Under the pieces are notes generated by a model, which saw only the letters and a list, made by a program, of their open reading frames with translations, ran no database searches and was not told where the DNA came from. Below, piece by piece: positions 3,537 through 35,276 of a stretch of 64,000 bases of DNA (the first letter of the stretch is position 1; each line of letters opens with the position of its first letter). A program made the position numbers and the translations under genes. The DNA comes from Komagataeibacter intermedius TF2 (GTDB lineage Bacteria > Pseudomonadota > Alphaproteobacteria > Acetobacterales > Acetobacteraceae): contig NZ_BANF01000072.1 in NCBI RefSeq assembly GCF_000964425.1, forward strand, positions 1 through 64,000, read 5' to 3'.

Positions 3537-3540
3537 CTGT

Positions 3541-4168: not shown

Positions 4169-4197
4169 CCTGCATGGGCAGGCATGACCGCCTGCCC

Positions 4198-4232
4198 CGG
4201 TCCTTCCCCGTTACCTGGGGAAGGCCGTTTTT
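4198..4232 (+). terminator. Rho-independent terminator of the HMA gene
   Basis: Stem CGG(T)CCTTCCCC / GGGGAAGGCCG with a 7-base loop followed by TTTTT, about 30 bases after the stop codon. The T-run is also the first part of the repeat that follows. Confidence 0.8.
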
Positions 4233-4285
4233 GGTAAAATGTTCCGAAACACCGCCTTTTTGAAAAAAGGCGGTCCCGGAAACCT
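4228..4285. repeat. Palindromic repeat element (copy 1)
   Basis: Contains TTTTTGGTAAAA followed by the perfect inverted repeat ACCGCCTTTTT-GA-AAAAAGGCGGT (4251-4274). Pieces of the same element recur at 22849-22887 and 61661-61685: the 12-mer here is the reverse complement of TTTTACCAAAAA at 61661. It is probably a dispersed REP-like repeat of this genome. Confidence 0.55.
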
Positions 4286-4294
4286 GTCTGCCTG

Positions 4295-4738
4295 TCAGCC
4301 GCCCATGCCGGCGGCGGCCTTGCGTATGGCCTGCGCCATGGCTTCCACCCCGTTGCCCCGGTTGGTGGACAGTGCCTGCACCAGTCCAAGATCACGCAGG
4401 AATTTGGGGTCCGTATTCAGGATCTCGTCCCGGCTGCGCCCCGAATAGACCCGCAGCAGCAGCGCAACCAGCCCCGATACAATGGCCGCATCCGACGCAC
4501 CAGCCAGATACAGCAGCCCGTCACGCGGCTGTACTTCCATCCAGACCTGGCTCTGGCATCCCGGCACACGGTGGGCATCGTCCTGCCATTCGGGGGGGAA
4601 TGGCGGCAGCTTGCGCCCCAGCTCGATGATGTACTGGTAGCGCTGCATCCAGTCATCGAACAGGGCCAGTTCCTCACCAATCTCCGCAATGGCATCAGCG
4701 GCAGTATCGTCCTCGGGCTTTACGAAAGGATCGGTCAT
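4295..4738 (-). CDS. sufE: SufE family cysteine desulfurase activator
   Basis: A 147-residue SufE-fold protein. SufE accepts persulfide sulfur from the cysteine desulfurase SufS and passes it to the SufBCD iron-sulfur scaffold in the cytosol. The acceptor cysteine is in the signature VPGCQSQVWM near the middle, and the length matches the family (about 140). The gene opens with tandem ATG codons (4739-4741 and 4736-4738); AGGA is better spaced from the second, so that was used. No other suf gene is nearby, so this is a detached or accessory SufE; CsdE, the paralogue acting with CsdA, cannot be excluded. A terminator-like hairpin lies between it and hslU, which is on the same strand upstream. 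Confidence 0.88.
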   Translation of the reverse strand: MTDPFVKPEDDTAADAIAEIGEELALFDDWMQRYQYIIELGRKLPPFPPEWQDDAHRVPGCQSQVWMEVQPRDGLLYLAGASDAAIVSGLVALLLRVYSGRSRDEILNTDPKFLRDLGLVQALSTNRGNGVEAMAQAIRKAAAGMGG

Positions 4739-4791
4739 CATCTTTCCTGTTACGCGGGGGCCATGGCGGCCCGGAAAACGGAGCTGAACGC

Positions 4792-4817
4792 AAAAGGCCG
4801 CACCCTGCGGCGCGGCC
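4792..4817 (-). terminator. Terminator after hslU
   Basis: On the minus strand GGCCGC-N10-GCGGCC is followed by TTTT, 22 bases after the hslU stop. It separates hslVU from sufE. Confidence 0.65.
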
Positions 4818-4839
4818 CCTGCAGCGGGCAGGTACTGCC

Positions 4840-6153
4840 CTACAGGATAAAGCGGCTCAGATCACCCTTGCGGGCCAGGGGAGCCACACGGTTCTGGACA
4901 TCCTCAGCCGTGATCACCACGTCTTCCCCGCTCCGGTCGGCGGCGGTGAAGGATACATCCTCCAGCAGGCGTTCCAGAACGGTGGCCAGACGCCGCGCGC
5001 CAATATTCTCCACCCGCTCATTAATGTCGGCCGCCAGTTCCGCCAGCGCATCAATCGCGCCATCGGTAAAGGACAGCGTCACCTTTTCCGTGCCCAGCAG
5101 GGCGACGTACTGCTGCAGCAGCGAATGTTCCGGCTCGGTCAGTATCCGGCGCAGGTCATCACGCGTCAGCGACGCCAGTTCCACGCGGATGGGCAGGCGT
5201 CCCTGCAGTTCAGGCAGCAGGTCGGACGGCTTGGCGATATGGAACGCGCCCGATGCGATGAACAGGATATGGTCCGTGCGCACGGGGCCGTATTTGGTGG
5301 AAACGGTCGTCCCTTCGATCAGGGGCAACAGGTCGCGCTGCACCCCTTCGCGCGAGACATCGCCCCCACGCGATCCCCCTTCGGACGCACGTGCGCAGAC
5401 CTTGTCGATTTCATCAAGGAAGACGATGCCGTGGTCCTGCGCGTGGGCCACGGCTTCACGCGTCAGGGTTTCGGTATCCAGCATCTTGTCTGCTTCCTGC
5501 CGGATCAGGGCGGCACGGGCCGCAGCCACCGTCATGCGCTTCTGCTGCGGCATGCGGTTCATGAAGCCCTTCATCATGTCGGAAAAGTTGATGACGGCGC
5601 CGGGTGTCATGTTCGGCATGTCGGATGGTGATGGATTGCCCCCTTCGGCAATCGAGATCTCGACTTCCTTGTTTTCCAGTTCACCCGCGCGCAGCATCCG
5701 GCGGAACTTGTTGCGGGTTTCCGACGATGCGCCCTCGCCCACCAGTGCATTGAGCAGGATGTCCTCAGCGGCCTGTTCGGCGTTCTTTTCCACGTCCTTG
5801 CGCCGCAGGTCGCGCAGCATGTTGATCGATGCCTCGACCAGGTCACGCACGATACTTTCCACGTCGCGGCCGACATAACCGACCTCGGTGAACTTGGTCG
5901 CCTCGACCTTCAGGAACGGCGCCTGCGCCAGCTTGGCCAGACGGCGCGCGATCTCGGTCTTGCCGCAGCCGGTCGGCCCGATCATCAGGATGTTCTTGGG
6001 CACGACCTCGTCGCGCATCGCATCGGTCAGCTGCGCGCGCCGCCAGCGGTTGCGCAGCGCAATGGCCACGGCACGCTTCGCATCGGCCTGACCGATGATG
6101 TAGCGATCGAGTTCGGCCACGATCTCCCGCGGGGAATGATTGGGGATTTCCAT
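4840..6153 (-). CDS. hslU: HslU, ATPase subunit of the HslUV protease
   Basis: A 437-residue AAA+ unfoldase that forms a hexamer and feeds proteins into the HslV dodecamer in the cytoplasm. Visible motifs are Walker [17 protein letters not shown] near residue 57, the pore loop and start of the I-domain ([14 protein letters not shown]), Walker B with IVFLDEIDK, and the C-terminal tail ending DLSRFIL, which in this family docks into HslV. The usual length is about 440. Its ATG overlaps the hslV stop by one base (TAATG), so the two are translationally coupled in an hslV-hslU operon. Confidence 0.97.
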
Positions 6154-6746
6154 TACGCCGCTCCGTCCTGCGTATCCGCGCCCAGTGTTTCCACAATGAC
6201 GGAATGATTGGTGTAAACACAGATGTCACCGGCGATCTTCATCGACCGCCGCGCGATATCCACCGCTGACAGCCCCTCGATCCCCAGCAGCGCGCGGGCG
6301 GCCGACAGCGCGTAATTCCCGCCCGATCCGATGGCGATGATGCCGTCCTCGGGCTCCAGCACGTCGCCATTGCCCGTCAGGGTGAAGGACCGTTCCGCGT
6401 CCGCCACGGCCATCATCGCCTCAAGCCTGCGCAGGTAGCGGTCCGTGCGCCAGTCCTTCGCCAGTTCCACGCAGGCGCGTTCCAGCTGGTTGGGATAACG
6501 TTCCAGCTTGTTTTCCAGCCGCTCCAGCAGGGTGAAGGCATCCGCCGTGGCCCCGGCGAAACCGGCCAGTATCTGTCCGGTCGGGCCGATGCGGCGCACC
6601 TTGCGGGCATTTCCCTTGATCACGGTGGCGCCCAGCGTCACCTGCCCATCGCCCGCCATGGCCACCTGGCCGTCGCGGCGGACACATAAAATGGTCGTTC
6701 CATGCCACCCGACAGGGTCATGGGGAGATGAATGATATTCTTGCAT
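6153..6746 (-). CDS. hslV: HslV, peptidase subunit of the HslUV protease
   Basis: A 197-residue N-terminal nucleophile peptidase of the proteasome beta type. The catalytic Thr follows a short propeptide at [12 protein letters not shown] (residues 15-17), then comes the conserved [23 protein letters not shown] later in the chain is also typical. HslV is about 15 residues longer at the N-terminus than E. coli HslV, as in many alphaproteobacteria. No strong ribosome binding site precedes the ATG at 6746, but the family N-terminus requires a start at or near it. The first gene of hslVU; the hybrid kinase gene lies upstream on the same strand, separated by a weak hairpin. Confidence 0.96.
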
Positions 6747-11790: not shown

Positions 11791-13913
11791 AACAGCCCCT
11801 TTATGGTATCGATCAGTTCACCCTGATCGAATTTCTGCTTGGTCAGGTAGGCACGCGCTCCACCTTCCATGCCCCGGCGCACGTCATCCCCCTCATCGCG
11901 CGATGTCATGAGGACAACAGGGATGCCGGACAGGTGCGGATCGGCCTGCATGGCCGCCAGCAGCGCGAACCCGTCCATGCGTGGCATTTCGACATCCGTC
12001 ACCACCACATCCACATGCCGCGAGGACTGCTGGAGCAGAGCCAGCGCCTCCTCCCCATCCACCGCAAGACAGACATCGTAACCATGGGACTGCAATATGG
12101 TTTTCTGCAGTGTCCGTGTCGTGATTGAATCGTCCACCACCATGACCAGCGGCGCATGGCGCACGGCCACCACGGGGGCGGCTTCATCCACGTCACTGAA
12201 GCATACCCCCGCGCCATTGCCGCGCAGCCGCCAGCGCGCGAACAGACGGTCGGGGCTGAGGATGAAAACCGGCTGGTCCTCGCGCTGCCATGCGATGCCA
12301 GGCACCAGTTCACTATCCAGCCCCACGGCGGTCGCATCCGACACCAGCAGCGTGCGCACGTCCACCATGCGTTCCACCGCAAAGCCGCAGCGCACGCCAT
12401 CGACCTCCATCACCACCACGCTGACCGCGCCATCGCGCACGGGCAGCGGCGCGTTTTCATCCCCCACGAAGGCGCGCAGCGGCACAAGCGGCACAAGGTC
12501 CTCGGCCTGTCCGTCGCCCTGCGCACGATCCGGCTGCATGCCGCCGGAACGGTGGGGCACCACGGCAAAGGGCGCGCCATTGAGCAGCCTGATCCCGTCA
12601 CGCCGCACCCGCAGCAGGTGGCGGATCACCCGTCCGGGCAGACCCAGCGCCTGCCCCGCGTTTTCCACCAGCAGCACGGTGCGCTGGCGCTGGGACACCG
12701 GCACGGTCAGGGTCACGGTCGTGCCTGCGGGCTGGCGCTGTTCCATGCGCACGGTGCCATGCAGGGCGCGCGCTGCCTCTGCCACCACCGACAGTCCGAC
12801 CCCGCGCCCGGCCAGCGTATCCGCCTGCCCGCGCGTGGAAAAACCCGGTTCGAACACGCGCGCCAGCAACTGCCGCGCATCCAGCGGCGCATCGGCATGG
12901 ACCAGCCCCTGCCCTGCCGCCCGCGCGGCGATGGCCTGCAGGTCGGGGCCGCGCCCGTCATCACTGACCGCAACCTGCAGCCGCACGCCGGTCAGGGTGA
13001 CGGCAATGGTGATGTTCAGCCGTTCCGACTTGCCTTCCTTCAGCCGCTGGGCACGGGTTTCATGCCCGTGCACGATGGCGTTGCGCACCAGATGGACCAC
13101 CGGGTCGCGCAGGGCCTGCATCACCCGGCGTTCGGTCTGGACCTCCATGCCATACATGTGCACGTCCACCCCGGCATCCGGCCCCCCGTGTTCGCGCGCG
13201 ATGCGCCGGGCCATGGCGGCCAGGGAACCAAACACGCTTTCGGCGGGCACAAGGGTGACGGCGTGGACTTCCTCCCCCAGCCGCAGCAGCGCGCGGTCGA
13301 TCTGCCCGGACATGAGTTCACGCTCACGCCCCACCGTCATGAGCTTGCGCGTCATGCGCGCGAATTCGGCCACGGGGTCGGCGCGCATGCGTTCGGGGGC
13401 GTGCATGACCGCGCGGGATTCATCAAGCAGGTCCATGACCTGCGCCCACAGCCGTTCATGCCGTTCGGCCACGGACATGAGATCATGCACCGCCAGGGCC
13501 AGCGCATCGAGCCGCGCGACAGGCACCTGCACATAGGCGGGGTTTTCCGTAGCGGTAGCGGATGCCGGCGTTTCGTCCTCCGATGGATGGGCCTCGCCAT
13601 CCGCCGGGGCGGATGTCATGAGCAGGTCCACCTCATCCAGCGTGTCGGTAATGGCCTTCAGGTCCGCCGCATCCGGCAGGGCACGGGCGGCCAGCAGCGC
13701 CGACAGGCGGTTTTCCAGCGCGTGGGCCACCCCTTCGACCGTCGGCAGTTCGACCGCGCGCGCCGCCCCCTTGAGCGAGTGGACGCGCCGGAAGATTTCC
13801 GCCAGTCCCTGCGCATCGGGGCATCCGGCGGCCACGATGCCCCGGATCGCACGCAGGTGGTCGCGGTATTCCGCGTCAAATACCGCCAGAAGTTCGTCCC
13901 GAAGGTTGTCCAC
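11787..13913 (-). CDS. cheA: Hybrid CheA kinase with C-terminal receiver
   Basis: A 708-residue chemotaxis-type kinase. Domains: Hpt (1-105) with phospho-His H45 in RRVHSLKGAARA, a linker, dimerisation segment, CheA-type HATPase (VVHLVRNAIVHGHE and GRGVGLSVVAEAA), CheW-like domain, and a C-terminal receiver (about 590-708, D640 in TDVEMPRMDG). It has a single Hpt and no recognisable CheY-binding P2 domain, as in WspE and CheA3 proteins with fused receivers. The fused receiver may act as phosphate sink or relay. The start is a GTG (13911-13913) ten bases after the receptor stop. It probably phosphorylates CheB and the receiver of one or both hybrid kinases. Confidence 0.93.
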   Translation of the reverse strand: MDNLRDELLAVFDAEYRDHLRAIRGIVAAGCPDAQGLAEIFRRVHSLKGAARAVELPTVEGVAHALENRLSALLAARALPDAADLKAITDTLDEVDLLMTSAPADGEAHPSEDETPASATATENPAYVQVPVARLDALALAVHDLMSVAERHERLWAQVMDLLDESRAVMHAPERMRADPVAEFARMTRKLMTVGRERELMSGQIDRALLRLGEEVHAVTLVPAESVFGSLAAMARRIAREHGGPDAGVDVHMYGMEVQTERRVMQALRDPVVHLVRNAIVHGHETRAQRLKEGKSERLNITIAVTLTGVRLQVAVSDDGRGPDLQAIAARAAGQGLVHADAPLDARQLLARVFEPGFSTRGQADTLAGRGVGLSVVAEAARALHGTVRMEQRQPAGTTVTLTVPVSQRQRTVLLVENAGQALGLPGRVIRHLLRVRRDGIRLLNGAPFAVVPHRSGGMQPDRAQGDGQAEDLVPLVPLRAFVGDENAPLPVRDGAVSVVVMEVDGVRCGFAVERMVDVRTLLVSDATAVGLDSELVPGIAWQREDQPVFILSPDRLFARWRLRGNGAGVCFSDVDEAAPVVAVRHAPLVMVVDDSITTRTLQKTILQSHGYDVCLAVDGEEALALLQQSSRHVDVVVTDVEMPRMDGFALLAAMQADPHLSGIPVVLMTSRDEGDDVRRGMEGGARAYLTKQKFDQGELIDTIKGLL

Positions 13914-23735: not shown

Positions 23736-24500
23736 ATGCCAGAGAACATGCACACCGCCGCCAGCTTCTATGCCACCCGCCGGGGCCAGGTGGCCGCGCG
23801 CCTGCTGTGCCAGCGCATGGCCGCCATCTGGCCCGAAGGGACGGCGGGGCACACGCTGGGCCTTGGGTACGCGCACCCCTTCCTGCCATTATGGGACCGG
23901 CCCGACAGGCCGTGCGTGTCCGCGCGGCTGGACACCCACGTTACCCGTGATGCACAGCCATGGCAGGGACGCGACTGTATCGTGAATGGCACGCATCTGC
24001 CATTCGATGACCTGCAGTTCGACCGTATCGTGATGATCCATGCGCTGGAGGTCAGCGAGGACAAGAACAGCCTGCTGCGGCAGGTCTGGAAAGTCCTGAA
24101 GGATGACGGGCGGCTGCTGCTGGTCGTGCCCAACCGGGCGGGGCTGTGGGCGCATGCCGACAATTCCCCCTTCGGGCAGGGCACGCCGTTTTCGCGCCGG
24201 CAGATCAGCCGCTGGCTGGCCAATGCCTGTTTCCGGGCGGAACGCCATGAAGATGCGCTGTACGCCCCACCTGCCGGCCCATGCCCGGCCGCCCCGCTGG
24301 GCATGATGGAATGGACGGGGCGCAACCTGTTCCCCCGTCTGGGCGGTGTCTGCATGATCGAGGCGGTCAAGGACATTTACGCCGCCGTGCCCACCCGTCC
24401 CGCGACACTGGTGCCCACGGGGCTGCGCCTGCGGCCGGCACGGGTCTTTTCACGCAATGCGACATCCCGTCGGCAACCACGGGACATGCAGAATACTTGA
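23736..24500 (+). CDS. SAM-dependent methyltransferase (class I), possibly ubiE/BioC-type
   Basis: A 254-residue protein with a class I methyltransferase core: FDRIVMIHALEVSEDK (post-IV region) and WKVLKDDGRLLLVVPNRAGLWAH, the pattern of the Methyltransf_11 group. The N-terminal glycine-rich SAM loop is degenerate (TLGLGYAHPFL), so cofactor binding is less certain. It is divergent from gloB, an arrangement common in alphaproteobacteria. The substrate is unknown. Confidence 0.8.
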   Translation: MPENMHTAASFYATRRGQVAARLLCQRMAAIWPEGTAGHTLGLGYAHPFLPLWDRPDRPCVSARLDTHVTRDAQPWQGRDCIVNGTHLPFDDLQFDRIVMIHALEVSEDKNSLLRQVWKVLKDDGRLLLVVPNRAGLWAHADNSPFGQGTPFSRRQISRWLANACFRAERHEDALYAPPAGPCPAAPLGMMEWTGRNLFPRLGGVCMIEAVKDIYAAVPTRPATLVPTGLRLRPARVFSRNATSRRQPRDMQNT

Positions 24501-24534
24501 CCATTTTTACCGAAATCTTCATGAACATTATCCC

Positions 24535-25212
24535 ATGTCGCTGATTCAATCGCTCAAGCTTGTCATTGCACCGCCGCACCCGGCCGCGCGCCCCTTTCTC
24601 CTTGCATCGGGGGCCGGGGCCGTCATCGGTCGGCTGCTGCCGTTCCGGGTGACCAGATGGCTTGGTACAGCCAGTGGCCTGTTCTTCGGCTTCTGCCTGT
24701 ATTTTTTCCGTGACCCCGAACGCGTCACCCCGGCCGAGCCGAACGTGGCGGTTGCCCCGGCAGACGGGCATGTCGTCTCGATCGAGAAAGTGGCTCCGCC
24801 ACCGGAACTGGATATGGGGGATGCCCCGGTCTGGCGCATCGCCACCTTCCTGTCGGTTCTGGACGTGCATGTGAACCGTATGCCCGTCGCGGGCACCGTG
24901 ACGAAAATCGCCTACCATGCCGGGCAGTTCCTGAACGCCAGCCTGGACAAGGCGTCCGAGCTGAACGAACGCAATGCGCTGCGCGTGACGCTGAAGGATG
25001 GCCGTCAGGTTGCCGTGGTCCAGATCGCGGGACTGATCGCGCGGCGCATCCTGTGCGATGCGGAAGAAGGCATGCAGTACGAAACCGGCGAACGCTTCGG
25101 GCTGATCCGCTTCGGCTCACGCACCGACCTGTACCTGCCGCCCGATGTCACGCCGCTGGTGGAAGTCGGCCAGACCATGATTGGCGGCGAAACCGTGATG
25201 GCGCGGCTTTAA
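24535..25212 (+). CDS. psd: Phosphatidylserine decarboxylase proenzyme (short form)
   Basis: A 225-residue pyruvoyl enzyme converting phosphatidylserine to phosphatidylethanolamine at the inner membrane. An N-terminal hydrophobic part (residues 20-55) precedes FRDPERVTPAEPNVAVAPADGHV and the later HVNRMPVAGTV. Near the C-terminus FGSRTDLYLP contains the Gly-Ser pair where self-cleavage creates the pyruvoyl group of the alpha chain. The length fits the short alphaproteobacterial/archaeal-type family. It is followed six bases later by pssA. Confidence 0.94.
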   Translation: MSLIQSLKLVIAPPHPAARPFLLASGAGAVIGRLLPFRVTRWLGTASGLFFGFCLYFFRDPERVTPAEPNVAVAPADGHVVSIEKVAPPPELDMGDAPVWRIATFLSVLDVHVNRMPVAGTVTKIAYHAGQFLNASLDKASELNERNALRVTLKDGRQVAVVQIAGLIARRILCDAEEGMQYETGERFGLIRFGSRTDLYLPPDVTPLVEVGQTMIGGETVMARL

Positions 25213-25218
25213 CCGGGC

Positions 25219-26076
25219 ATGGCCACCCCGCCGACACGCCGTATCCGACGGTTGAAAAAACGCCAGCGCCCCCGCGTGCGGGGCCTGTCGTTCAACCGGA
25301 TGATCCCAAACCTCATGACGATGCTGGGCCTGTGCGCGGGCCTGACGGGCATGCGATTCGGGCTGGAAGGGCGATTTGGCAGTGCGGCGACCGCCCTGCT
25401 GATCGCCGCCTGCATTGACGGGCTGGATGGACGAATCGCGCGCCTGCTGCGCGGCACCAGCCGCTTTGGCGCGGAATTCGACAGCCTGTCGGATTTCCTG
25501 TGCTTTGGCGTGGCCCCTGCCTTTGTCCTTTACCTGTGGGCGCTGCATGAAGGGGGGCGGTTTGGCTACATCCCCTGCATCATGTTCACGGTATGCATGG
25601 CGCTGCGCCTGGCGCGCTTCAACGCCAGCCTGGATGACGACGCCAACCAGCCCAAATACGCCAGCAACTTCTTCACCGGCGTTCCCGCCCCGGCGGGCGC
25701 GGGGCTGGCGCTGTTTCCGCTTTTCCTCGGGCTGGAAGCACAGCACCTGCACTGTGACTGGCTGTATGAACTGACGCGCGACCCGCTCCTGCCCGCGCTG
25801 ACGCTCAGCGGCACGGCCTTCCTGCTGGTATCGACCCTGCCGGTCTGGTCGTTCAAGAACTTCAAGGTACCCTCCCCCATGATCCTGCCCACCATGCTGG
25901 GCACGGGGGCCTATGCCGCCGTTCTGGTGGCCGAACCATGGGGCGCGCTGGCGGCGGCGGGGATCATCTACATCCTGCTGCTTCCCATGAGCAGGCGGAG
26001 CTTCCACCGCCTGCGCCGCGAAGCCGAGGCATTGCAGGAAAGCGACGACCAGCCCGTACCCACCCCTTCGGCCTGA
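25219..26076 (+). CDS. pssA: CDP-diacylglycerol-serine O-phosphatidyltransferase
   Basis: A 285-residue integral membrane enzyme making phosphatidylserine from CDP-diacylglycerol and serine, the substrate of Psd just upstream. The CDP-alcohol phosphotransferase signature DGxxAR(x8)GxxxDxxxD is complete: DGLDGRIARLLRGTSRFGAEFDSLSD. About eight hydrophobic helices follow. The gene pair psd-pssA gives a two-step route to phosphatidylethanolamine. It is convergent with the hydrogenase-like cluster, with only 22 bases between stops. Confidence 0.94.
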   Translation: MATPPTRRIRRLKKRQRPRVRGLSFNRMIPNLMTMLGLCAGLTGMRFGLEGRFGSAATALLIAACIDGLDGRIARLLRGTSRFGAEFDSLSDFLCFGVAPAFVLYLWALHEGGRFGYIPCIMFTVCMALRLARFNASLDDDANQPKYASNFFTGVPAPAGAGLALFPLFLGLEAQHLHCDWLYELTRDPLLPALTLSGTAFLLVSTLPVWSFKNFKVPSPMILPTMLGTGAYAAVLVAEPWGALAAAGIIYILLLPMSRRSFHRLRREAEALQESDDQPVPTPSA

Positions 26077-26098: not shown

Positions 26099-26548
26099 TC
26101 AGGTCGCCTTCCCTTCGCCCTGCGTGCGCCAGCGGATCAGGGCATCGAGGATTTCCGCAGGCGATGGCGGGCATCCGGGCAGCAGCAGGCTGGCGCGCGC
26201 ACGTCCGCCCACCCCGCCCAGAACCGCGTAACCGGGCGTGAACACCCCCCCATCCACCGCGCAGTCCCCCACTGCGGCCAGCAGGCGCGCGCCCGGCATG
26301 GCCTGCCATGCCAGTTCGACAACCGGGGCCATGTCCACCGTCAGGCTGCCGGTCACCAGCAGCAGCCCCGCCTGTCGTGGCGTGGAGACAAAACGAATAT
26401 CGGAATGCCCTTCCACCAGGACGCGCGACAGGCTGCGCAGTTCAATCGCACAGCCCGCGCAGCCCCCGGTTTCCATGTGGAAGATGTCCAGCGGCACCAT
26501 GCGCGGCAGCACAGCACCATCTGGCCAGAACAGGTTCAGATACGCCAT
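26099..26548 (-). CDS. hyfI: Hydrogenase-4/NuoB-like FeS small subunit
   Basis: A 149-residue small subunit of the NuoB/HyfI/EchC family. All four cysteines expected for the proximal [4Fe-4S] cluster are present: C30 and C33 (GGCAGC), C96 (GDCAVDGG) and C126 (LPGCPPSP). The CxxC spacing is that of group 4 hydrogenase small subunits, rather than the CC of complex I NuoB. It should pair with the large subunit encoded just upstream and link it to the membrane arm. It is the last gene of the cluster; no ferredoxin-like NuoI/HycF subunit accompanies it here. The symbol is by homology. Confidence 0.85.
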   Translation of the reverse strand: MAYLNLFWPDGAVLPRMVPLDIFHMETGGCAGCAIELRSLSRVLVEGHSDIRFVSTPRQAGLLLVTGSLTVDMAPVVELAWQAMPGARLLAAVGDCAVDGGVFTPGYAVLGGVGGRARASLLLPGCPPSPAEILDALIRWRTQGEGKAT

Positions 26549-26557
26549 GGCCCCATC

Positions 26558-28024
26558 CTACAGATCCGCGCCCGCAGCCGACAGGCCAAGCGATGTCAGG
26601 ATCAGCGGCACGTCCTCATACACCGCGCCGGACAATATGCCGGGCAGCGCCTGAAACAGTAACAGGGACGCATCACCACACCACCATGCCGCGACACGGC
26701 CATGCTCCACCCTGACCCAGTGCCAGACAGGCCCGGTGGGGCCTTCCACGCAGCCTACGCCTTCCCCCGATCCATGCGCGCCATGCCCGGCGGGCACGCT
26801 GACGGCCGCGCCATCGAACGTGGACAGGATGCCAACGGCCGTTTCCACCTCCTGCAGGCGCATGGCCAGACGGTCAGCCACATCGCCTCCCATGCCCTCA
26901 TGCCCTGCGGACCGTGACACATAGGCCCGCAGATCACCTTCAGCGCCAGACGCCCGGCCCACGCAGCCCGCAATCCCCCACCTGCGGGCTGCATCCGCCG
27001 ACAGGATACCCCGCCCGCGCGCCTGCATGGCCATGCCACGCGGCCGCCAGAACAGACGGCGCAACGTGGCGCAGCCCGTGCGCAGCTCCGTCAGGATCTC
27101 CATGGGAATGGACACGGCCCGTCCCGTGTCGCCTGCAGGTGGCAGCACGTCAAACAGCAGGCGACTGCCACAGCCATCCCGACAGGCCTGCCGCACACGC
27201 TCCAGCAGGGTTGCGGCAAGAATGGCAAAACGCCCATCGGCCAGCAGGTCCGCCGCGGTGGCCAGCGTGTCCAGATGGATCGCAATGCGTTCCAGTTCGC
27301 CCACGAACATGGCCGCATCATCCATATCCGCGCCTGCCTGTTCCCCCGCCGCCCCCAGCGCGCGGGCAAAAGCCACCTGGTGGGCCACCGTAGCCGTTGC
27401 ATCGATCCGGGCGACCAGCCGGGCTGCCTGCGCCACCGTGGCGCCACGCATGCGCGCGCACAGGCCACGATGGGCGTACCCCATGCGGGTGCGGACCTGC
27501 ATGATCCGCTCACCCGGCAGGCCCAGACGCAGGTGGAAGGGAGAGTGGAAATCCCCCTCCGCCGGGCCGTACCCCACAACGGTGCCACCGGCCTGCACCA
27601 TGGCGGCATCATCGGTGAATTCCACGCCTTCCGGTGGCGCTGGCGCGGGCGGTGGCCGGTCATGCAGGGGCCATGTCACCGGCCACCGTCCCTGATCCAG
27701 CCATGGGGCGCTGTCTGTCGCCCCCATGCCCTCGATCCCCCACAGATCCTGCGTGATGCGTTCATAAGCCGCCGCCCCGGCGCGTACGGGGGACAGGGCA
27801 AGATAGCGCCCATCCATGACCGCGACACTGGCCAGCAGGGGACATGTCCCCTCCATGAACAGGGCATGTATCTGCACCCCATCCGACCACAGCCCCAGCA
27901 GCGGCAGGGTGGAATGACGCAGGTTTTCCACCATGTCGCGCCACGCTCCGCCATCCAGCACGAACCGCCCGGCACACGCCGCAGGCATTCCGCTGCGAAT
28001 CAGGTCCGGTACCTGCGCTGTCAT
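26558..28024 (-). CDS. hyfG: Hydrogenase large-subunit-like protein without nickel ligands
   Basis: A 488-residue protein fusing a NuoC-like N-terminal part (about 1-120) to a NuoD/HycE-like large subunit (about 150-488), as in HyfG. Conserved pieces are GYAHRGLCARMRG and the helical core. In NiFe hydrogenases two CxxC motifs bind nickel; here the first is replaced (R206-I-D-A-T-A-T-V-A-H215 in place of RICGICxxxH) and the second reads D471-V-P-L-I-L in place of DPCxxC. Hydrogen chemistry is therefore unlikely. Such proteins belong to energy-converting hydrogenase-related (Ehr) complexes of unknown reaction. The start ATG overlaps the preceding gene by four bases; an in-frame extension to 28246 was rejected for that reason. 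Confidence 0.85.
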   Translation of the reverse strand: MTAQVPDLIRSGMPAACAGRFVLDGGAWRDMVENLRHSTLPLLGLWSDGVQIHALFMEGTCPLLASVAVMDGRYLALSPVRAGAAAYERITQDLWGIEGMGATDSAPWLDQGRWPVTWPLHDRPPPAPAPPEGVEFTDDAAMVQAGGTVVGYGPAEGDFHSPFHLRLGLPGERIMQVRTRMGYAHRGLCARMRGATVAQAARLVARIDATATVAHQVAFARALGAAGEQAGADMDDAAMFVGELERIAIHLDTLATAADLLADGRFAILAATLLERVRQACRDGCGSRLLFDVLPPAGDTGRAVSIPMEILTELRTGCATLRRLFWRPRGMAMQARGRGILSADAARRWGIAGCVGRASGAEGDLRAYVSRSAGHEGMGGDVADRLAMRLQEVETAVGILSTFDGAAVSVPAGHGAHGSGEGVGCVEGPTGPVWHWVRVEHGRVAAWWCGDASLLLFQALPGILSGAVYEDVPLILTSLGLSAAGADL

Positions 28025-29091
28025 GACCCTCTCCCCACCCGGTACGCAACAGTGGCAAGCACCGCGCACCCGGCCACCAGCAATAACGTCGCCTGTGCCC
28101 ATGGCGGCCTGCCATGGGCGTCCCGGCCACGCAGCGCCAGCACCGGCCACAGGCTGGCACCGGCGGCAAACGCCACGGGGGCCATGCCGCCCATTTCCCC
28201 GACAAGCACGAGACCCGCCGCCATGCCGGGCAGGAAGGGCGGCCACACCATATATCCAGCCGGTGGACCATCCGATAACGGCACGCAGGCCATAACCAGC
28301 AGGCAGGCAGCCAGTGGCAGCGCCCCCATGCCGTCATCCGGCAGGCCCGCAGCCAGCACGGCCCAACCGGCCCAGTATCCCCCGCCAGAGACGCGCCCCC
28401 GCCGGAACAGGACCGCCCATGACAGGCACACACATCCCATGAAGGTCAGGACAGGCAGCAGGACCGGCCACACCCCTCCCGCCCGCGCCACAACCGGCAG
28501 GACGGCCAGAATTTCCATGTTCCATCCCGGCCCGGCCTGCCCCGGCCGACCCATGACGGCACAGGCCAGCAGCAGCCCGCCCACCAGCAGGATCGCCCCG
28601 GCCTGATCGTGCATATGCCCCCATCCCGCCTGCAACACGAACAGGCCCCCCTGCGCCATCAGCAACCCGCACAGTTCCATGCGCAGGACCTGCCAGCCGT
28701 CCCGCTCCAGTCCGCGCGGCCCAATCGCCAGCGCAAGACGGGCCACAAGCCCGCAGCCCAGAAACAGTCCGAGCAGGTCACACCGCCCGAAAGCGATGGC
28801 AAGGGCGGCAATGCCCGACAGGAAAAAGGGCAGCACGGCCGCCCCGCGCGATACGTTCCCTGCCCCGTGCCGCGCCCTGAAAACCCACACGCATAATGCC
28901 AGCGCGGGCGCCGTTTCCATCATGCATCCCGCCACATCGCCCGACAGGCCACCCGCCACGCCGCACAGCACCAGAAACAGCACCGTCAGAAGCACGCGCA
29001 GCGCCTGTGTCGCCCCGGTCGCCAGCAGGGCGGTCAGCGCCAGCGCCAGCCAGCCGCCCAGCAGGCTGGCATAAAGGGAAAGCGACATCAT
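28021..29091 (-). CDS. hyfF: HyfF/NuoN-like proton-translocating membrane subunit (short)
   Basis: A 356-residue polytopic membrane protein with about ten helices in the antiporter-like fold shared by NuoL/M/N and HyfF. It is far shorter than E. coli HyfF (about 526), so one or more terminal helices are absent; no frameshift is visible and the neighbours overlap by four bases at each end, so the length appears genuine. The identification rests on gene order (B-C-E-F-G-I, as in hydrogenase-4) more than on strong motifs. It would contribute to ion translocation. Confidence 0.72.
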   Translation of the reverse strand: MMSLSLYASLLGGWLALALTALLATGATQALRVLLTVLFLVLCGVAGGLSGDVAGCMMETAPALALCVWVFRARHGAGNVSRGAAVLPFFLSGIAALAIAFGRCDLLGLFLGCGLVARLALAIGPRGLERDGWQVLRMELCGLLMAQGGLFVLQAGWGHMHDQAGAILLVGGLLLACAVMGRPGQAGPGWNMEILAVLPVVARAGGVWPVLLPVLTFMGCVCLSWAVLFRRGRVSGGGYWAGWAVLAAGLPDDGMGALPLAACLLVMACVPLSDGPPAGYMVWPPFLPGMAAGLVLVGEMGGMAPVAFAAGASLWPVLALRGRDAHGRPPWAQATLLLVAGCAVLATVAYRVGRGS

Positions 29092-29633
29092 TCCCCCCGT
29101 CCATGCACGCGCGGCGCCGCGGCCAGCAGGACATTCAGCCCGATTGCCGCAACAATCACCTCCCCCATGACCAGCAGGTCATCCGTGCGTACCGCCAGCA
29201 GCATGACACCATCCAGCCCACAGGCCAGCCCCGCGCACAACGCGACAGGCCCGCGCGCGATACACGCGCTCCATACGCCACACAGGATGGCGGCCAGACC
29301 CGTCATGCCCATAAGGCGCGCCGTCATGCCATCCTGCGGTCCCTGCATGATGACCTGTGTCAGCACCGCGACACAGGCCAGGCCACCGGCAAGCCGCAGC
29401 CCGCTACGCTCCCGCCGGGCCGCGGGAATATGCAGCATCTGCACGCCCAGCAGTCCGAACAGGGCCGCAAGCCCCACCGCCATGATGCAGGCCAGCCCGA
29501 CCTGCCCCTGCATCCAGCGCGACAGGCACACGCACGCCGCCGTACACGCCGCATGCCAGACCGGACCGCCGCCCCGCCCCCCCGACGTCGAGAGCGAGAG
29601 AATGACCAGCACGCCCAGAAGCAGCACCAGCAT
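29088..29633 (-). CDS. hyfE: HyfE-like (NuoK-related) membrane subunit
   Basis: A 181-residue protein with six or so hydrophobic segments, corresponding in place and size to HyfE (about 216 residues), which contains a NuoK-like part. It starts at the ATG 29631-29633, two bases after the hyfC stop; the open frame extends further upstream inside hyfC but is not used. Sequence similarity is weak to the eye, so the call leans on gene order and topology. It overlaps the next gene (ATGATG/TGA) by four bases. Confidence 0.68.
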   Translation of the reverse strand: MLVLLLGVLVILSLSTSGGRGGGPVWHAACTAACVCLSRWMQGQVGLACIMAVGLAALFGLLGVQMLHIPAARRERSGLRLAGGLACVAVLTQVIMQGPQDGMTARLMGMTGLAAILCGVWSACIARGPVALCAGLACGLDGVMLLAVRTDDLLVMGEVIVAAIGLNVLLAAAPRVHGRGE

Positions 29634-29635
29634 GC

Positions 29636-30604
29636 TCAGCCCATCCCCCGCCCGGCAAACAGCAGCACCCCGGCCATGATGGCGCATAACAGCGCAAGAC
29701 CGCCCCGCCAGCCCGCATGCCGCTGTCCCGACACCACGAAAACCCGTATCGCCGCGACACACCCGCAGGCCAGCAGCATATGCGCCACCCACAGCGCGAC
29801 CGCCACCAGCATGGGCGCCAGCACCCCTGATCGCGGCAGGATGTCGGGCTCCGCAATTCCTTCAGGCCAGATCAGGTCACGCGCCAGCATCATCCACACC
29901 ACCGCCAGCAGGTCACGCGCGTACTGGGCCACGGCGCGATCAGGGCCGGCAAGGTCCTCCAGCATGGCCGAAAACAGCGTTGATGTCGTTCCGTCCCCTT
30001 CACCCACCGCCCCCAGCACCAGCGCGCCGGCAACCAGCGCCAGCGGCACGCGCACAAGGTTCATGTCCGCCACATGCGCCTGCCGCACCAGTCCCGCCAG
30101 CGTGCCATCAGGCAGGCACATGCCCAGCACCGCGCAGGCCAGCAGCATGACCGGCTGTATCATGATCCCCCCCGCCACGACCCGCAGTCCCGCATGCCCC
30201 GGTCGCGCCAGCCCCGGCGCAAGGGCCGCCACCACCAGCGCAAGGAAGACCATTTCCAGCAGCCCGCCGATAATCAGCACATCCGACAGGTCGCCCCCAG
30301 GCATGCCGATGGAAAAGGACGGCACCAGCAGCGCCGCCCCCATGCCCGCCGCCAGCGCCAGCCAGGGGGCAACCGCCGTCACCTGCGCGCCTGCGGCCGA
30401 CCGCACGCCCACCTGCCGCCATGCATGCAGCAGCACACGCCAGTGCGCGGTCGGGTCCGGCAGGCGGCGTTCCCCCTCCATCACGGCGGCCATCCAGCGC
30501 AGCAGGCCGATCCATACCGGCGCGCCCAGCATGACCAGCGCCATATGGCAGCCCGCAAGCAGGAGGGCCTGCATCCGCGCGGCCAGCATGAATGACGTCA
30601 TCAT
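29636..30604 (-). CDS. hyfC: HyfC/NuoH-like membrane subunit
   Basis: A 322-residue membrane protein of the NuoH/HycD/HyfC family, which joins the peripheral electron-transfer arm to the membrane arm. Supporting elements are eight predicted helices and the hydrophilic loops near GMPGGDLSD, GDGTTSTLF and EDLAGPDRAVAQYARDL, which resemble the quinone-site loops of NuoH. The ATG at 30602-30604 directly follows AGGGGC; alternative starts are at 30601, 30616 and 30625. It begins five bases after the hyfB stop. Confidence 0.8.
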   Translation of the reverse strand: MMTSFMLAARMQALLLAGCHMALVMLGAPVWIGLLRWMAAVMEGERRLPDPTAHWRVLLHAWRQVGVRSAAGAQVTAVAPWLALAAGMGAALLVPSFSIGMPGGDLSDVLIIGGLLEMVFLALVVAALAPGLARPGHAGLRVVAGGIMIQPVMLLACAVLGMCLPDGTLAGLVRQAHVADMNLVRVPLALVAGALVLGAVGEGDGTTSTLFSAMLEDLAGPDRAVAQYARDLLAVVWMMLARDLIWPEGIAEPDILPRSGVLAPMLVAVALWVAHMLLACGCVAAIRVFVVSGQRHAGWRGGLALLCAIMAGVLLFAGRGMG

Positions 30605-30608
30605 GCCC

Positions 30609-32345
30609 CTATCCATGCCATGCAATGAATATGAGTGCCGCCATGCACGCCATGACCATCATCACCGGCGCGGACACCGTCATGCCATCCTGTCGCCTGT
30701 CGGCCACATATTGCGCCAGCAGGGGCCATACCCGCGCGCCCCGCCGCCGCAGGCGCACGCAATCGCGCATGAACCGCCTGCGCACCGCGACCGTTCCCAC
30801 CATGTCCAGCAGCATATTCACGGGATTGCCCGGCCCCACCTGCGTCAGCGGGTCGCCAAACACCATCCACGGCGGCACGGGGGGCGCACCCTGCCGCCAC
30901 CCCGCGACCTGCCGGGCGGACGTGGGACAGGCCATGCGCCGCACCACCACGACCATGCCCCCGACCACGGCCACCAGCAGGCACAGCCGCGCAGGATGCA
31001 GCACCGCCGCCCCATCGGGCGACGTCAGCGCGACATTGTCCACGGCCACACCCGCCCCCGCGCCCGCCAGAAGCCCAAGCCAGTATCCCGGCCATACGGA
31101 CACGCACACCACCGGCAGGACCGCCAGCACGATGGCCGCCATGTCCCGCCCCGACGGATCAGCGGCCCCCGCGCCGCGCGGCGTGCGTGGCCTGCCGCAC
31201 AGCATGACCGCCACGATGCGCACAAGCGCCAGCATACGCACTGCCCACCCGATCCCCAGCGCCAGCAGCGCCAGCAGCAACGGCAGGTCGCCCCCCAGCC
31301 CCCCGCCGCGCGGCATGGCCGCCAGCAGGCGCAGCAACATCCAGATTATGGAAAAACCCAGCAGCGGCGGCAGTCCGCTTTCCGCCAGAAGCCCGATGGA
31401 AAACAGGGCCGACAGGCGCGGCATCAGCACGCCCAGCCCACCCAGCCGGTTCAATATCAGGGGACCTGCCTCGCGCTCCATCACATCCATCGCACGCGCC
31501 ATGAACATCCATGTCAGCAGCGCGCCAGCCACCAGCATGAACGTGCGGCTGGCGCAGGCGGCCATGGCGGGCAGGTCATCGGCACGGGCCAGCAGCCCCA
31601 GCCCCGCCAGCACGATCACCAGCGCCCCCGTGCCCCCCATCAGTCCCGTCATGACCCTACGCCCGTCCCCCGCGCACAGCGCCCGCCACGAAGCCGTCAT
31701 GTACAGCAGGCAGCCGGCAACGATCAGCACGCCGCCCCACCGCATGTCCCCCACCATGCCGCCAGCGGGCAGGTGCCGCCACAGCGCCATGGCCGCAACC
31801 ATCGCGGCGATGTCAGCCATATGGAAAGGGTGCAGGCCACGCGGCGACACGCGTGGCGAAAAGGACAGGCCCAGCAGCCCGCGCGTGGCAAGCCAGCACA
31901 GCCCGGGCAGCAGCCAGCCCGCCGGACGTGCAAACAGCAGTACCGCCGCCATAAGCAGCAGGGCGACCAGGTCAGGCGCCTGCCGCGCCATATCATCGTG
32001 CGGGCCATCCCTGCGTGCGATCAGGGTCCACCCCGCCCCCACGCAGGACAGGACCGGCCCGCCGGTCACCGCAAGCGCCGCGCCCGCGCAGGCCGCCAGA
32101 CCGCGCGCGCCGGACGCCGCCGCCCCGACAACGCCAAGCGGCACCAGCAGGGCGGTATCATGCATGTCACCCGAAAAACCGGCCCATGGCGCGATGCCCC
32201 CCGGCAATCCCGCCCCAAGGCAGGACAGGATGGCCATGATGCACAGCGCCATCCACCCGCAGCGCAGGACAGGTACCATTCCGGCCATCTGCCTTACGCC
32301 GCAGGCGGGCGGCACGCTGGCCACCGCCAGCAGCAGCACGGTCAC
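30609..32345 (-). CDS. hyfB: HyfB/NuoL-like proton-translocating membrane subunit
   Basis: A 578-residue protein with about 14 helices in the NuoL/M/HyfB antiporter-like fold. A short antiporter-type motif is visible in SALFSIGLLAESGLPPLLGF, together with HPFHMADIAAMVAAMALW. It is the first of six overlapping or closely spaced genes (B-C-E-F-G-I). The first in-frame canonical start is GTG 32343-32345 with no ribosome binding site. GGGAGG lies six bases before an in-frame ATC at 32366, so a non-canonical ATC/ATT start adding six or seven residues is possible. The aldo/keto reductase gene 58 bases upstream may be cotranscribed. Confidence 0.8.
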   Translation of the reverse strand: MTVLLLAVASVPPACGVRQMAGMVPVLRCGWMALCIMAILSCLGAGLPGGIAPWAGFSGDMHDTALLVPLGVVGAAASGARGLAACAGAALAVTGGPVLSCVGAGWTLIARRDGPHDDMARQAPDLVALLLMAAVLLFARPAGWLLPGLCWLATRGLLGLSFSPRVSPRGLHPFHMADIAAMVAAMALWRHLPAGGMVGDMRWGGVLIVAGCLLYMTASWRALCAGDGRRVMTGLMGGTGALVIVLAGLGLLARADDLPAMAACASRTFMLVAGALLTWMFMARAMDVMEREAGPLILNRLGGLGVLMPRLSALFSIGLLAESGLPPLLGFSIIWMLLRLLAAMPRGGGLGGDLPLLLALLALGIGWAVRMLALVRIVAVMLCGRPRTPRGAGAADPSGRDMAAIVLAVLPVVCVSVWPGYWLGLLAGAGAGVAVDNVALTSPDGAAVLHPARLCLLVAVVGGMVVVVRRMACPTSARQVAGWRQGAPPVPPWMVFGDPLTQVGPGNPVNMLLDMVGTVAVRRRFMRDCVRLRRRGARVWPLLAQYVADRRQDGMTVSAPVMMVMACMAALIFIAWHG

Positions 32346-32403: not shown

Positions 32404-33255
32404 TCAGATCATGGCCAGCGGCTCCTTGCGGCGCGGCGGCGCTATGGCTTCATCAATCTCCGCCAGATCATCGCGCGTCAAGGTGATCTCGACTGCTGCG
32501 AAGTTTTCTTGCTGATGCCGCGGGCTGCCTGCCTTGGGAATGGCCAGCACGTTTTCCTGCCGAAGCACCCATGCCAGCGCGATCTGCGCCGTCGTGGCCG
32601 GCCCGAGGGATGTGCTGTGACGCGCTGCCATGCGCCTGAGCACCGGCGCGCGCAGCAGGTCACCCCCCTGCCCCAGTGGGGAATAGGCCATGGTTACGAC
32701 GCCAGCATCACGATCACGTTGCAGCAGGTCGAATTCCACGCCACGGTAATCAAGGCTGTACAGCACCTGGTTTGCGGCGCATGGCGTGCTGGCCGGTGTG
32801 CTTTCGACCTCCATCATGCCATCGGCGTCGAAGTTGGATACGCCCCAGCTCCGGATCAGGCCCGCATCAACCAGATCATCGAATCCCGCCAGCGTTTCCT
32901 CCAGTGGTACGCTGCCGGGCCAGTGCAGCAGGTAAAGGTCAAGAAAATCGGTGCCCAGCCGTTTGAGTGACGCCTCGCACGCACGCCGCACGCCCGTGCG
33001 CGATGCGTTGGAGGGCACGACCTTACTGACTAGGAACACGTCACCGCGGCGTCCCCGTATCGCCTCGCCCACCAGCTTTTCGGAACGGCCGGAGCCATAC
33101 ATTTCCGCCGTGTCCACCACGCGGATCCCCGCGTCGAGACCTGCGTGGATGCTCTTTATCTCATCCGCGCGGCGGCTGTCGCTGTCCCCCATGTTCCATG
33201 TGCCCATGCCCAGCGCGGGCACCGTGGTTCCATTGGGGAAAGTAACCGTCTTCAT
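32404..33255 (-). CDS. Aldo/keto reductase
   Basis: A 283-residue NAD(P)H-dependent (beta/alpha)8 oxidoreductase. The catalytic tetrad is visible: Asp and Tyr in RVVDTAEMYG, Lys in FLVSKVVPS and His in YLLHWPG. The downstream GVSNF and the PKAGSPRHQQEN cofactor loop complete the family pattern. It most resembles the 2,5-diketo-gluconate reductase-like group, fitting the sugar chemistry of acetic acid bacteria, but the substrate is not determinable. An AAAGG-type site precedes the ATG. It lies directly upstream of the hydrogenase-like cluster on the same strand. Confidence 0.92.
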   Translation of the reverse strand: MKTVTFPNGTTVPALGMGTWNMGDSDSRRADEIKSIHAGLDAGIRVVDTAEMYGSGRSEKLVGEAIRGRRGDVFLVSKVVPSNASRTGVRRACEASLKRLGTDFLDLYLLHWPGSVPLEETLAGFDDLVDAGLIRSWGVSNFDADGMMEVESTPASTPCAANQVLYSLDYRGVEFDLLQRDRDAGVVTMAYSPLGQGGDLLRAPVLRRMAARHSTSLGPATTAQIALAWVLRQENVLAIPKAGSPRHQQENFAAVEITLTRDDLAEIDEAIAPPRRKEPLAMI

Positions 33256-33308: not shown

Positions 33309-33755
33309 CTATTTGCGACGCGCCCAGCCTCTGGGCTGCTGTTGCCAGTAGCTCAGGTCATGGCCACCATCGCGCCATGCCACCCAGCGTTTGCGTGCGC
33401 TGGCGACGGCGGCCTCATCATGGCCATCGAACAGGTCGAACACCCGTTCGAAAGGGGACAGGTCGGCGGCTTCCACCCCGTCAAGCAGGAAGGCGAAGGT
33501 CGCGCCGTTGGGCACGTCCTGGCCATCCGTCAGCCAGATCGGCTGCCACGGCCCATGCCCCATGGCCTGCGTGCCATGGGGAAGCCACAGCGGGTCGGTC
33601 GCCCGCCACAGCCCGTCATCAAGCTCCTGCACCCGTTCCACCGTGGCGCAGCGGACCACCGCCCGCTTTCCCGCCGCAAGCGTCCGGCCCAGCAGCGCAG
33701 GCAGGACCGCCAGCGCCGGTGAACGCGTCAGGTGATAGAAGCCGATCTGCGCCAT
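33309..33755 (-). CDS. holC: DNA polymerase III chi subunit
   Basis: A 148-residue protein of the HolC family, matching from the N-terminal GFYHLTRSP through ALLGRTLAAGKRAVVRC, DDGLWRATDPLWLPHG (the F/Y-WLPH feature of HolC), PIWLT and ERVFDLFDGHDE. Chi binds single-stranded DNA-binding protein and helps the clamp loader on lagging strands. It is encoded 42 bases downstream of pepA on the same strand, the order seen in many proteobacteria. Confidence 0.93.
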   Translation of the reverse strand: MAQIGFYHLTRSPALAVLPALLGRTLAAGKRAVVRCATVERVQELDDGLWRATDPLWLPHGTQAMGHGPWQPIWLTDGQDVPNGATFAFLLDGVEAADLSPFERVFDLFDGHDEAAVASARKRWVAWRDGGHDLSYWQQQPRGWARRK

Positions 33756-33797: not shown

Positions 33798-35276
33798 TTA
33801 CCCTTCGTAATACGTGCCGACCATGCGATCGAGCAGGCGCACGCCAAAGCCGGTCGCCCCACGGGGCGCATGCGATGTCGCCTTGGACGTAAACGCCGTG
33901 CCCGCAATGTCCAGATGCGCCCACGGCACATCGTTCACGAAGCATTCAAGGAACTTGGCCGCCGTGATCGACCCGCCGGGACGCCCGCCAATATTCTTGA
34001 GGTCCGCAATGTCCGAGCGCAGCAGTTCAAGGTAGCTGGCGTCCATGGGCATGCGCCACAGCTTCTCGCCCGTCTGTTCCCCCGTGGCCGACAGGTGGCC
34101 CGCAAGGCCGTCATTGTTGGAGAACAGGCCCGCGCGCTCAACCCCCAGGCTGACCACGATCGCCCCGGTCAGGGTGGCAAGGTTGACCATGAAGCGCGGT
34201 TTGAAGCGGTCCTGCGTGTACCACAGCACGTCCGCCAGCACGAGACGCCCTTCGGCATCGGTGTTCAGCACTTCAACCGTCTGGCCCGCCGCCGTGCGGA
34301 CCACGTCGCCCGGACGCTGCGCATTGCCCGACAGCATGTTTTCCACCAGCCCCACGACACCGACGGCGTTCACCTTCGCCTTGCGGCCCGCAAGGGCCGC
34401 CATGGTGCCGACCACGGCGGCGGCGCCTGCCATGTCGGTCTTCATTTCGTCCATGCCAGCCGCAGGCTTGATCGAGATACCGCCCGAATCAAACGTCACG
34501 CCCTTGCCGACGAAGGCCACCGGCGCCGCGCCGTCCGTGCCGCCATTCCAGCGCATGATGACCGTGCGCGGCGGCGCGTCACTGCCCTGCGCCACCCCCA
34601 GCAGGGCGCCAAAACCCAGCTTGTGCATGGCGTCGCGGTCCAGCACCTCGACCTCCACCCCAAGGTCACGCAGGGCAAGGATACGCTGCTCGAACTCGGG
34701 CGGGCGCAGCATGTTCGCGGGTTCGGACACCAGGTCACGGCACAGGAACACCCCGCGCGCCACCGCCGAAAGCGGCTGCCATGCCGCCTGTGCCGCGGCG
34801 GGATCGGCGCAGGCAACGGTCACGGCCGCCAGCGGGCCCGCATCGCCCTTGCGCGGCCGGGTACGGTACGAATCGAAACGGTAGCTGCCCAGCACGACAC
34901 CCAGCGCCACATGGGCGGCCAGGTCGGGGGCAATGCCATCGGCCACGACCACGCCCGACGTGCCCGCATCGGACAGGGCGCGGGCGGCCGCGACACCGGC
35001 CTGTTCGGCTACGGCGCCATCCAGCGCGTCCAGAGCGCCCAGACCCACCAGGACCACGCGGTCATATCCCGCCCCGGGCGCCAGCACGACACAGGTTTTC
35101 GCGGCGTCGAAGCCGAAGCCCGTGGCCTTCGCGGCCCGGGTCAGCGCGCCGCCCACCGCGGCGTCCAGCGCAGCAAGGGCGCCCGCGGGCGCCCCGCCGG
35201 ATGCGGCAAGGATGGCAATGGTGCCACTGGCGGGCAGGCTTGCGTCGGAAAAGGCGATATCGAGCATATGAATCAC
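33798..35276 (-). CDS. pepA: Leucyl aminopeptidase (cytosol aminopeptidase, M17)
   Basis: A 492-residue two-domain M17 peptidase that releases N-terminal amino acids. The C-terminal catalytic domain has FVGKGVTFDSGGISIKPA (metal-binding Lys and Asp), MKTDMAGAA and the signature NTDAEGRLVLADVL with the zinc-coordinating Asp/Glu. The N-terminal domain is the usual macrodomain-like region. The start is GTG at 35274-35276 (GGAG four bases before) or ATG at 35267; the GTG is used here with low certainty. It is divergent from cysQ. Confidence 0.95.
   Translation of the reverse strand: MIHMLDIAFSDASLPASGTIAILAASGGAPAGALAALDAAVGGALTRAAKATGFGFDAAKTCVVLAPGAGYDRVVLVGLGALDALDGAVAEQAGVAAARALSDAGTSGVVVADGIAPDLAAHVALGVVLGSYRFDSYRTRPRKGDAGPLAAVTVACADPAAAQAAWQPLSAVARGVFLCRDLVSEPANMLRPPEFEQRILALRDLGVEVEVLDRDAMHKLGFGALLGVAQGSDAPPRTVIMRWNGGTDGAAPVAFVGKGVTFDSGGISIKPAAGMDEMKTDMAGAAAVVGTMAALAGRKAKVNAVGVVGLVENMLSGNAQRPGDVVRTAAGQTVEVLNTDAEGRLVLADVLWYTQDRFKPRFMVNLATLTGAIVVSLGVERAGLFSNNDGLAGHLSATGEQTGEKLWRMPMDASYLELLRSDIADLKNIGGRPGGSITAAKFLECFVNDVPWAHLDIAGTAFTSKATSHAPRGATGFGVRLLDRMVGTYYEG

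Follow-up and report, generated by a model that had tools for sequence, protein, structure and literature searches.

An Ehr-type complex of Acetobacteraceae with a conserved redox head and a membrane arm that appears stripped of its proton-channel charges

How one iron-sulfur (FeS) cluster and a quinone are coupled to distant proton channels in the membrane has long been debated for respiratory complex I. In its antiporter modules, charges corresponding to those considered here carry protons or form ion pairs (PMC11496545), and energy-converting hydrogenase-related (Ehr) complexes have already been described by their missing CxxC motifs (PMC10284858, PMC6349859). The stretch analyzed here, hereafter the window, comprises 64,000 nucleotides of Komagataeibacter intermedius TF2, part of contig C872 (NZ_BANF01000072.1) in a 3.88 Mb genome, and carries on its minus strand, at 26099-32345, a six-gene complex (B-C-E-F-G-I) of the hydrogenase-4/Ehr type. 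Sequence comparison makes it highly probable that this is an Ehr-type complex from which the proton-channel residues have been lost, and its function is probably not proton pumping. Within the open-access literature searched (most subscription papers on Ehr lay outside our reach), we found no description of this complex in acetic acid bacteria.

The six genes stand in the order that the first-pass annotation of this DNA had described as a hydrogenase-4/Ehr layout. The large subunit G (26558-28024; HycE/HyfG/NuoD-like, 488 residues) matches Complex1_49kDa (PF00346; 2.7e-9, 37 bits) and the small subunit I (26099-26548; NuoB/HyfI-like) matches Oxidored_q6 (PF01058; 7e-21, 75 bits), and with these matches, and with relatives that have their genes in this order too, the operon is not a chance arrangement. 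A large-subunit profile (of A1) matches HycE (7z0s_E, 5e-54) and MbhL (9e-50), and HycE 7z0s_E is also the top match of a Foldseek search with a model of G (E 1.4e-16), which was of moderate quality (pLDDT 63) and served for fold only; the model of B (pLDDT 40) was useless. Matches of the membrane subunits are weak or absent: B (30609-32345; HyfB/NuoL-M-like, 578 residues) reaches 21 bits against PF00361, just below the cut-off, and 46 bits (3e-12) against the NCBIfam model of hydrogenase 4 subunit B, whose cut-off is 667 bits, while C (29636-30625; HyfC/NuoH-like), E (29088-29792; HyfE-like) and F (28021-29091; HyfF-like, 356 residues) have no Pfam match at all. For comparison, B, C and F of the canonical Ehr locus L079 score 172, 136 and 182 bits, and its E none. 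The NuoH-like and antiporter-like subunits were assigned by gene order and iterative hidden Markov model searches, as was E. Overlaps amount to 4 bases between F and G, 4 between E and F and 17 between B and C, and a gap of 9 bases separates the end of G from the start of I; the start codons of C and E are uncertain, and the C/E overlap hinges on the latter. The fitting start of G is the ATG at 28024, which overlaps the stop of F, the GTG at 28246 chosen by the open reading frame (ORF) tool being too early. Four named Komagataeibacter loci carry all six genes at 71-98% identity over almost their entire length, the closest named match of the large subunit is from Komagataeibacter oboediens (94% identity), and a viral search returned no relatives of this subunit.

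To follow individual residues, we compared 61 loci (the window, L031-L050 and L076-L115), taking HyfB, HyfF and HyfC, together with NuoL, NuoM, NuoN and NuoH of the window genome, as membrane-arm references; helix numbers and the matching of published residues to alignment columns are our own assignment. The antiporter-module residues (Glu of transmembrane helix (TM) 5, Lys of TM7, Lys of TM8, Glu/Lys of TM12) are all missing from window B. Across loci, the TM5 Glu, TM7 Lys, TM8 Lys, TM11 His, TM11 Lys and TM12 Glu of B are found without exception in the 24 canonical loci and in none of the 26 window-type loci, a contrast that is partly by construction, as the class labels were fixed after viewing these same residues. 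(Loci without a recognized B, namely L049, L092-L095 and L108, are omitted, as are hits in L078, L098, L099 and L113, where the ORF found is F.) Similarly, the TM5 Glu, TM8 Lys, TM11 His, TM11 Lys and TM12 Glu of F occur in 2, 0, 1, 0 and 1 of 26 window-type loci but in 28, 23, 28, 27 and 28 of 28 canonical ones (L042, L049, L107, L110 and L092-L093 omitted), and F itself is shorter, with a median of 397 residues against 482.5. The two glutamates of C persist in 6 and 5 of 31 window-type loci, compared with 26 of 26 each in the canonical type, and the Glu of the VEP motif is Gln in the window. The description of the complex as energy-converting consequently fares poorly: save for stray cases, the channel Lys, Glu and His of B and F are gone throughout the clade, as are most of those of C.

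Independent evidence for the class comes from a maximum-likelihood tree of G, a subunit other than those that bear these traits. All 31 window-type rows fall on one side of a branch recovered in 93% of 200 bootstrap trees, with support values of 94/73 that the program does not star, while flagging long branches (L093, L049, HyfG); the tree and the counts exclude the broken locus L092, and 12 further loci (L129-L140) lie outside the tree and were placed by profile and neighbors. All 31 rows are from Acetobacteraceae, and their clade is nested among canonical Acetobacteraceae rows; outside the family, at least 31 genomes have an Ehr-type match, and the 15 loci fetched from among them are all canonical. 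The sister locus L106 is intermediate: its B keeps the TM5 Glu and not the other five residues, its F likewise keeps the TM5 Glu alone of five charges, and its C retains both glutamates. Close to its end, B carries an LPFGD-type insert in 22 of 26 window-type loci, in L106 and in 8 of 10 canonical Acetobacteraceae loci, and in none of 14 canonical loci from outside the family; in the tree, the canonical family rows that do not have it, L100 and L109, cluster with rows from outside. The large-subunit tree and the insert both uphold common descent with canonical Ehr, and the two types co-occur in two genomes, G099 (L097, L098) and G062 (L109, L110).

At the level of sequence, the peripheral head, consisting of a NuoB-like [4Fe-4S] site and a HycE/NuoD-like pocket, is conserved and under purifying selection. 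The nickel cysteines of HyfG align with D208, A211, S482 and G485 of window G, in agreement with the solved structures of HycE and MbhL, and cysteine occupies these four positions in 1, 0, 0 and 0 of 31 window-type loci and in none of 28 canonical loci at each. The first-pass annotation had therefore rightly reported the nickel ligands as absent and the first CxxC motif as replaced by D208/A211, but it misplaced the second at P473/L476, and a search of the alignment for nickel cysteines elsewhere in the large subunit found none. Nor is the nickel site erased in any special event: given its absence in all canonical loci and the published descriptions of Ehr, its loss is a family trait and not news. 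What is retained in the pocket is the His of the HRG motif (31/31 window-type loci), the Arg of RxCGxC (31/31) and the His of AH (29/31), and 30 columns of the large subunit are invariant across 15 diverse sequences; window D208 corresponds to the NuoD Asp, and the HRG histidine is that of NuoD. In the small subunit, the four [4Fe-4S] cysteines C30, C33, C96 and C126 are as first annotated, and they are kept in 27, 28, 27 and 27 of 28 window-type loci (L042, L080, L092, L093, L098, L110 and L113 omitted). We agree with the annotation in leaving the electron donor and acceptor unassigned and in finding no ferredoxin-type Pfam domain among the six window proteins; however, this neither sets the window apart nor supports an unusual partner, as 15 canonical loci screened with HyfH (HyfA was not used) likewise gave no match. 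From these residues we infer that the head probably still works, with a single cluster and a pocket for a ligand.

The complex is widespread in the family. Profile scores separate Ehr-type large subunits (above about 230 bits if unbroken) from NuoD (at most 175 bits), and an Ehr-type subunit was found in 57 of 60 genomes drawn from the order (in one or more of them it is broken, and some are not of the window type) and in at least 31 of some 380 class genomes outside the family, where up to three candidates were scored per genome; some match occurs in 289 of 299 family genomes, a count that mixes in NuoD. All 19 genomes drawn from the genus carry the large subunit without an internal stop, which, with the four named loci holding six genes, rules out loss in a single strain or a sequencing artefact. 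In 14 of 21 non-randomly picked genomes, in which NuoD was the only complex I subunit sought, the window-type large subunit is the sole PF00346 protein (six others have a true NuoD and one has neither). These 14 genomes are small (1.9-2.6 Mb), and all of them keep all four FeS cysteines (L094, L095 and 12 more), although a B profile run on 12 of these loci (L129-L140) did not find B. The absence of complex I has been reported for Gluconobacter oxydans (PMC3751514), and the window genome has two true complex I NuoD genes elsewhere. The pump residues have been lost and yet the complex is kept in genome after genome, some of them without complex I, which points to a role that is probably non-pumping.

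Substitution patterns indicate constraint that is present but loosened. With dN/dS estimated by Nei and Gojobori counting, where some extended G starts make values rough, the six genes range from 0.11 to 0.38 in two close pairs within the genus (L034/L035, L035/L091), compared with 0.04-0.13 for neighboring genes, and from 0.13 to 0.45 in L034/L091, compared with 0.02-0.07. In distant pairs they reach 0.52 (window/L031) and 0.69 (L036/L038), and their neighbors 0.20 and 0.26. Values below 1 in all comparisons made, yet above those of the neighbors, indicate purifying but relaxed selection. Of the 2139 residues in the window's six proteins, one is lysine, compared with 78 of the 4655 encoded by 11 other window genes (one of which is also without lysine): B, C, E, F and G, including the soluble large subunit, have no lysine whatever, and lysine-free B, C, F and G are also found in L036, L037, L039 and L040. 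With B, C, E and F devoid of it, no lysine is available to build the usual proton path in the window species. Selection against lysine was also weighed; mutation pressure alone at 80% GC predicts 4.2 lysines where one was found, and GC pressure on relaxed sites accounts for most of the loss; the scarcity fits a long-relaxed constraint on single residues.

We give a probability of roughly 45% to a reading in which the complex descends from Ehr and acts as a redox module that has a single cluster, is anchored in the membrane and does not pump. Proton pumping would have been lost, as the stripped charges of the membrane arm suggest; electrons would pass from a cytoplasmic donor to the N2-like cluster and from there to a small ligand in the former active-site pocket, most likely a quinone. 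The output may be that of a low-flux, non-coupled reductase or of a sensor of the redox state of the quinones, with B, C, E and F serving as anchor and scaffold. A more specific proposal, which we hold to be improbable, is a dedicated membrane-bound redox sensor or switch, whose pumping arm would have been silenced once in an Acetobacteraceae ancestor and whose scaffold would report the state of the FeS cluster or of the pocket ligand. If this were true, evolution would have split the redox head of complex I from its proton machinery while retaining the whole assembly.

Beyond the partial circularity of the class labels, several observations weigh against a non-pumping redox module. The stretches of window B predicted to be hydrophobic hold 19 Arg and 8 Asp, and Arg, Asp or His could in principle stand in for the Lys and Glu of a pump; among 21 rows of window-type B (five congeneric rows were left out), charges are conserved at D60 (19), as Arg at the position of H191 (20), and at R376 (20), R387 (17), R390 (19) and R470 (17). 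In the pocket, the position of the NuoD tyrosine, which we take to be the quinone-holding partner of the HRG histidine, is Ala in window G, and the choice of a quinone as ligand is a guess based on kinship. The large subunit of G126 (L092) is broken into several frames, and the window-type small subunit of L111 (11084-11704) has lost three of its four FeS cysteines in an open frame, which suggests that the cluster may be dropped, or dispensable, in one lineage. Membrane subunits, moreover, evolve fast, which like the break in G126 fits slow decay too.

The charges in B speak for a complex that is still an energy-converting Ehr, with a rebuilt path in which Arg, Asp, His or water replaces the canonical Lys and Glu. 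B, C and F do persist as membrane proteins at the same operon positions, C D115 is kept in 19 of 26 rows, and B R390 and R470 differ from the residue that most canonical rows have. However, B D60, R191, R376 and R387, as well as C D115, are common to the canonical type and so replace nothing, whereas the six canonical B charges were lost together in 26 of 26 loci, those of F nearly all, and F is shortened. In addition, B is unrecognized in five loci, whose ORFs at that position measure 393, 442, 480, 456 and 724 residues; the first two, at the B position of L094 and L095, retain a PPLPGF stretch and gave no Pfam match when scanned. On balance, we regard a rebuilt pump as unlikely.

A second alternative is a structural or assembly role, such as holding respiratory complexes together, as has been proposed for the deranged bc1 of Acetobacteraceae. 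The precedent comes from the same family and names complex I as the client (PMC10715153, whose main text does not use the terms Ehr and Hyf), and the retention of the membrane arm without its charges also speaks for such a role. But the 14 genomes that have the complex and no complex I NuoD reject the stabilizing of complex I as its general role, and a purely structural complex would not need the FeS cysteines and pocket residues that have been kept, which makes this explanation quite doubtful.

The third holds that the complex is a slowly decaying relic with no function left. It draws on the relaxed constraint (dN/dS of up to 0.69 in a distant pair), on a lysine count near the expectation from GC pressure, and on the broken G126 large subunit and the lost L111 cysteines. 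Decay is hard to square with dN/dS below 1 throughout (0.11-0.45 in the three closest pairs), with unbroken large subunits in all 19 genus genomes, with the 30 invariant columns, and with retention in the 14 small genomes, and we judge it, too, to have little chance of being right. A cryptic hydrogenase, despite HycE and MbhL being the closest solved relatives, can be dismissed as next to impossible: nickel cysteines are missing from 31 of 31 loci save for one isolated residue in one of them, and searches of the window genome for HypD (a check on maturation genes that the annotation had proposed; the same search is positive in 4 of 14 control genomes, including E. coli) and for PF00374, the NiFe-hydrogenase large subunit (positive in 5 of 14), gave no match. 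Within the genus of G126, genome G046 (L093) carries the large subunit as one open frame.

Around the operon, an aldo/keto reductase gene (32404-33255, minus strand; PF00248, 7e-57) lies 58 bases upstream of B, followed on the same strand by holC (33309-33755; PF04364, 4e-31) and the leucyl aminopeptidase gene pepA (33798-35276); convergent to the operon, on the plus strand, are pssA (25219-26076), which like pepA was named by general domain and family library scans, and psd (24457-25212; PF02666, 3e-46). The window type mostly occupies this one locus: G has pepA, holC and the aldo/keto reductase gene as neighbors in 18 of 31 window-type loci each, pssA in 22 and psd in 21, as opposed to 0, 0, 1, 0 and 0 of 28 canonical loci. 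The aldo/keto reductase was considered as an electron partner and set aside, as nothing beyond its position near G in those 18 loci speaks for it; to our knowledge, aldo/keto reductases carry no cofactor able to feed an FeS cluster. Six Acetobacteraceae Ehr loci, with both types among them, have a DUF1489 gene (PF07370) nearby (L045, at 11964-12386, L099, L104, L105, L106 and L112). Five small genomes of genus g33 have about 4 kb of other DNA between G and I (L095, at 2346-6316, L134, L138, L139 and L140), and canonical Ehr genes also occur at L078 in a 0.9 Mb genome (G468) rated 100% complete. As for complex I itself, in its operon on contig C918 of genome G000 (L055, 9981-13369) nuoL and nuoN have no nuoM between them; NuoM is matched in full on a separate contig (C896:31239-32678), and contig C917 (58000-77500, L056) carries another complex I-like operon, in which NuoCD is a fusion. 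In A. pasteurianus 386B, one complex I gene is listed apart from the rest (PMC3751514).

What is new here is that membrane-arm charges, and not only the nickel site known to be absent from Ehr, are lost across one Acetobacteraceae clade. Canonical Ehr with all charges, the intermediate L106 and a clade with none form a natural series in which the assembly is retained and which offers ready-made candidates for uncoupled relatives. It also calls for caution: proteins of acetic acid bacteria annotated as hydrogenase-4 or complex I should not be equated with proton pumps unless the residues have been inspected, which bears on energy models of cellulose- and vinegar-making strains.

Set beside described systems, the window complex is closest to canonical alphaproteobacterial Ehr, with which it shares the B-C-E-F-G-I order, the lack of nickel cysteines, an FeS small subunit and, in the 15 loci screened, the lack of a HyfH match; canonical Ehr, however, keeps the channel charges, without exception for those checked in B and C and with few exceptions in F, whereas the window type has lost them, has a shorter F and sits mostly at the pepA/holC/pssA/psd locus, where no canonical locus (0/28) is found. 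With E. coli Hyf and Hyc (hydrogenase-4 and formate hydrogenlyase), it has the subunit order and the large-subunit fold in common, but not the nickel ligands or the proton-channel residues; no HyfA, HyfD or HyfH gene is among the six, and no hypD is in the genome. Respiratory complex I shares the NuoB cysteines, the HRG histidine of NuoD and the NuoD Asp (D208), and differs in its pumping residues and in its NADH module (NuoE, F and G), which is absent from the six genes and their identified neighbors. Finally, the deranged bc1 and COX1 of Acetobacteraceae are likewise respiratory proteins kept after the loss of cofactor ligands (PMC10715153), but in the complex described here it is the redox cluster that has been kept and the ion-pumping part that appears to have been lost.

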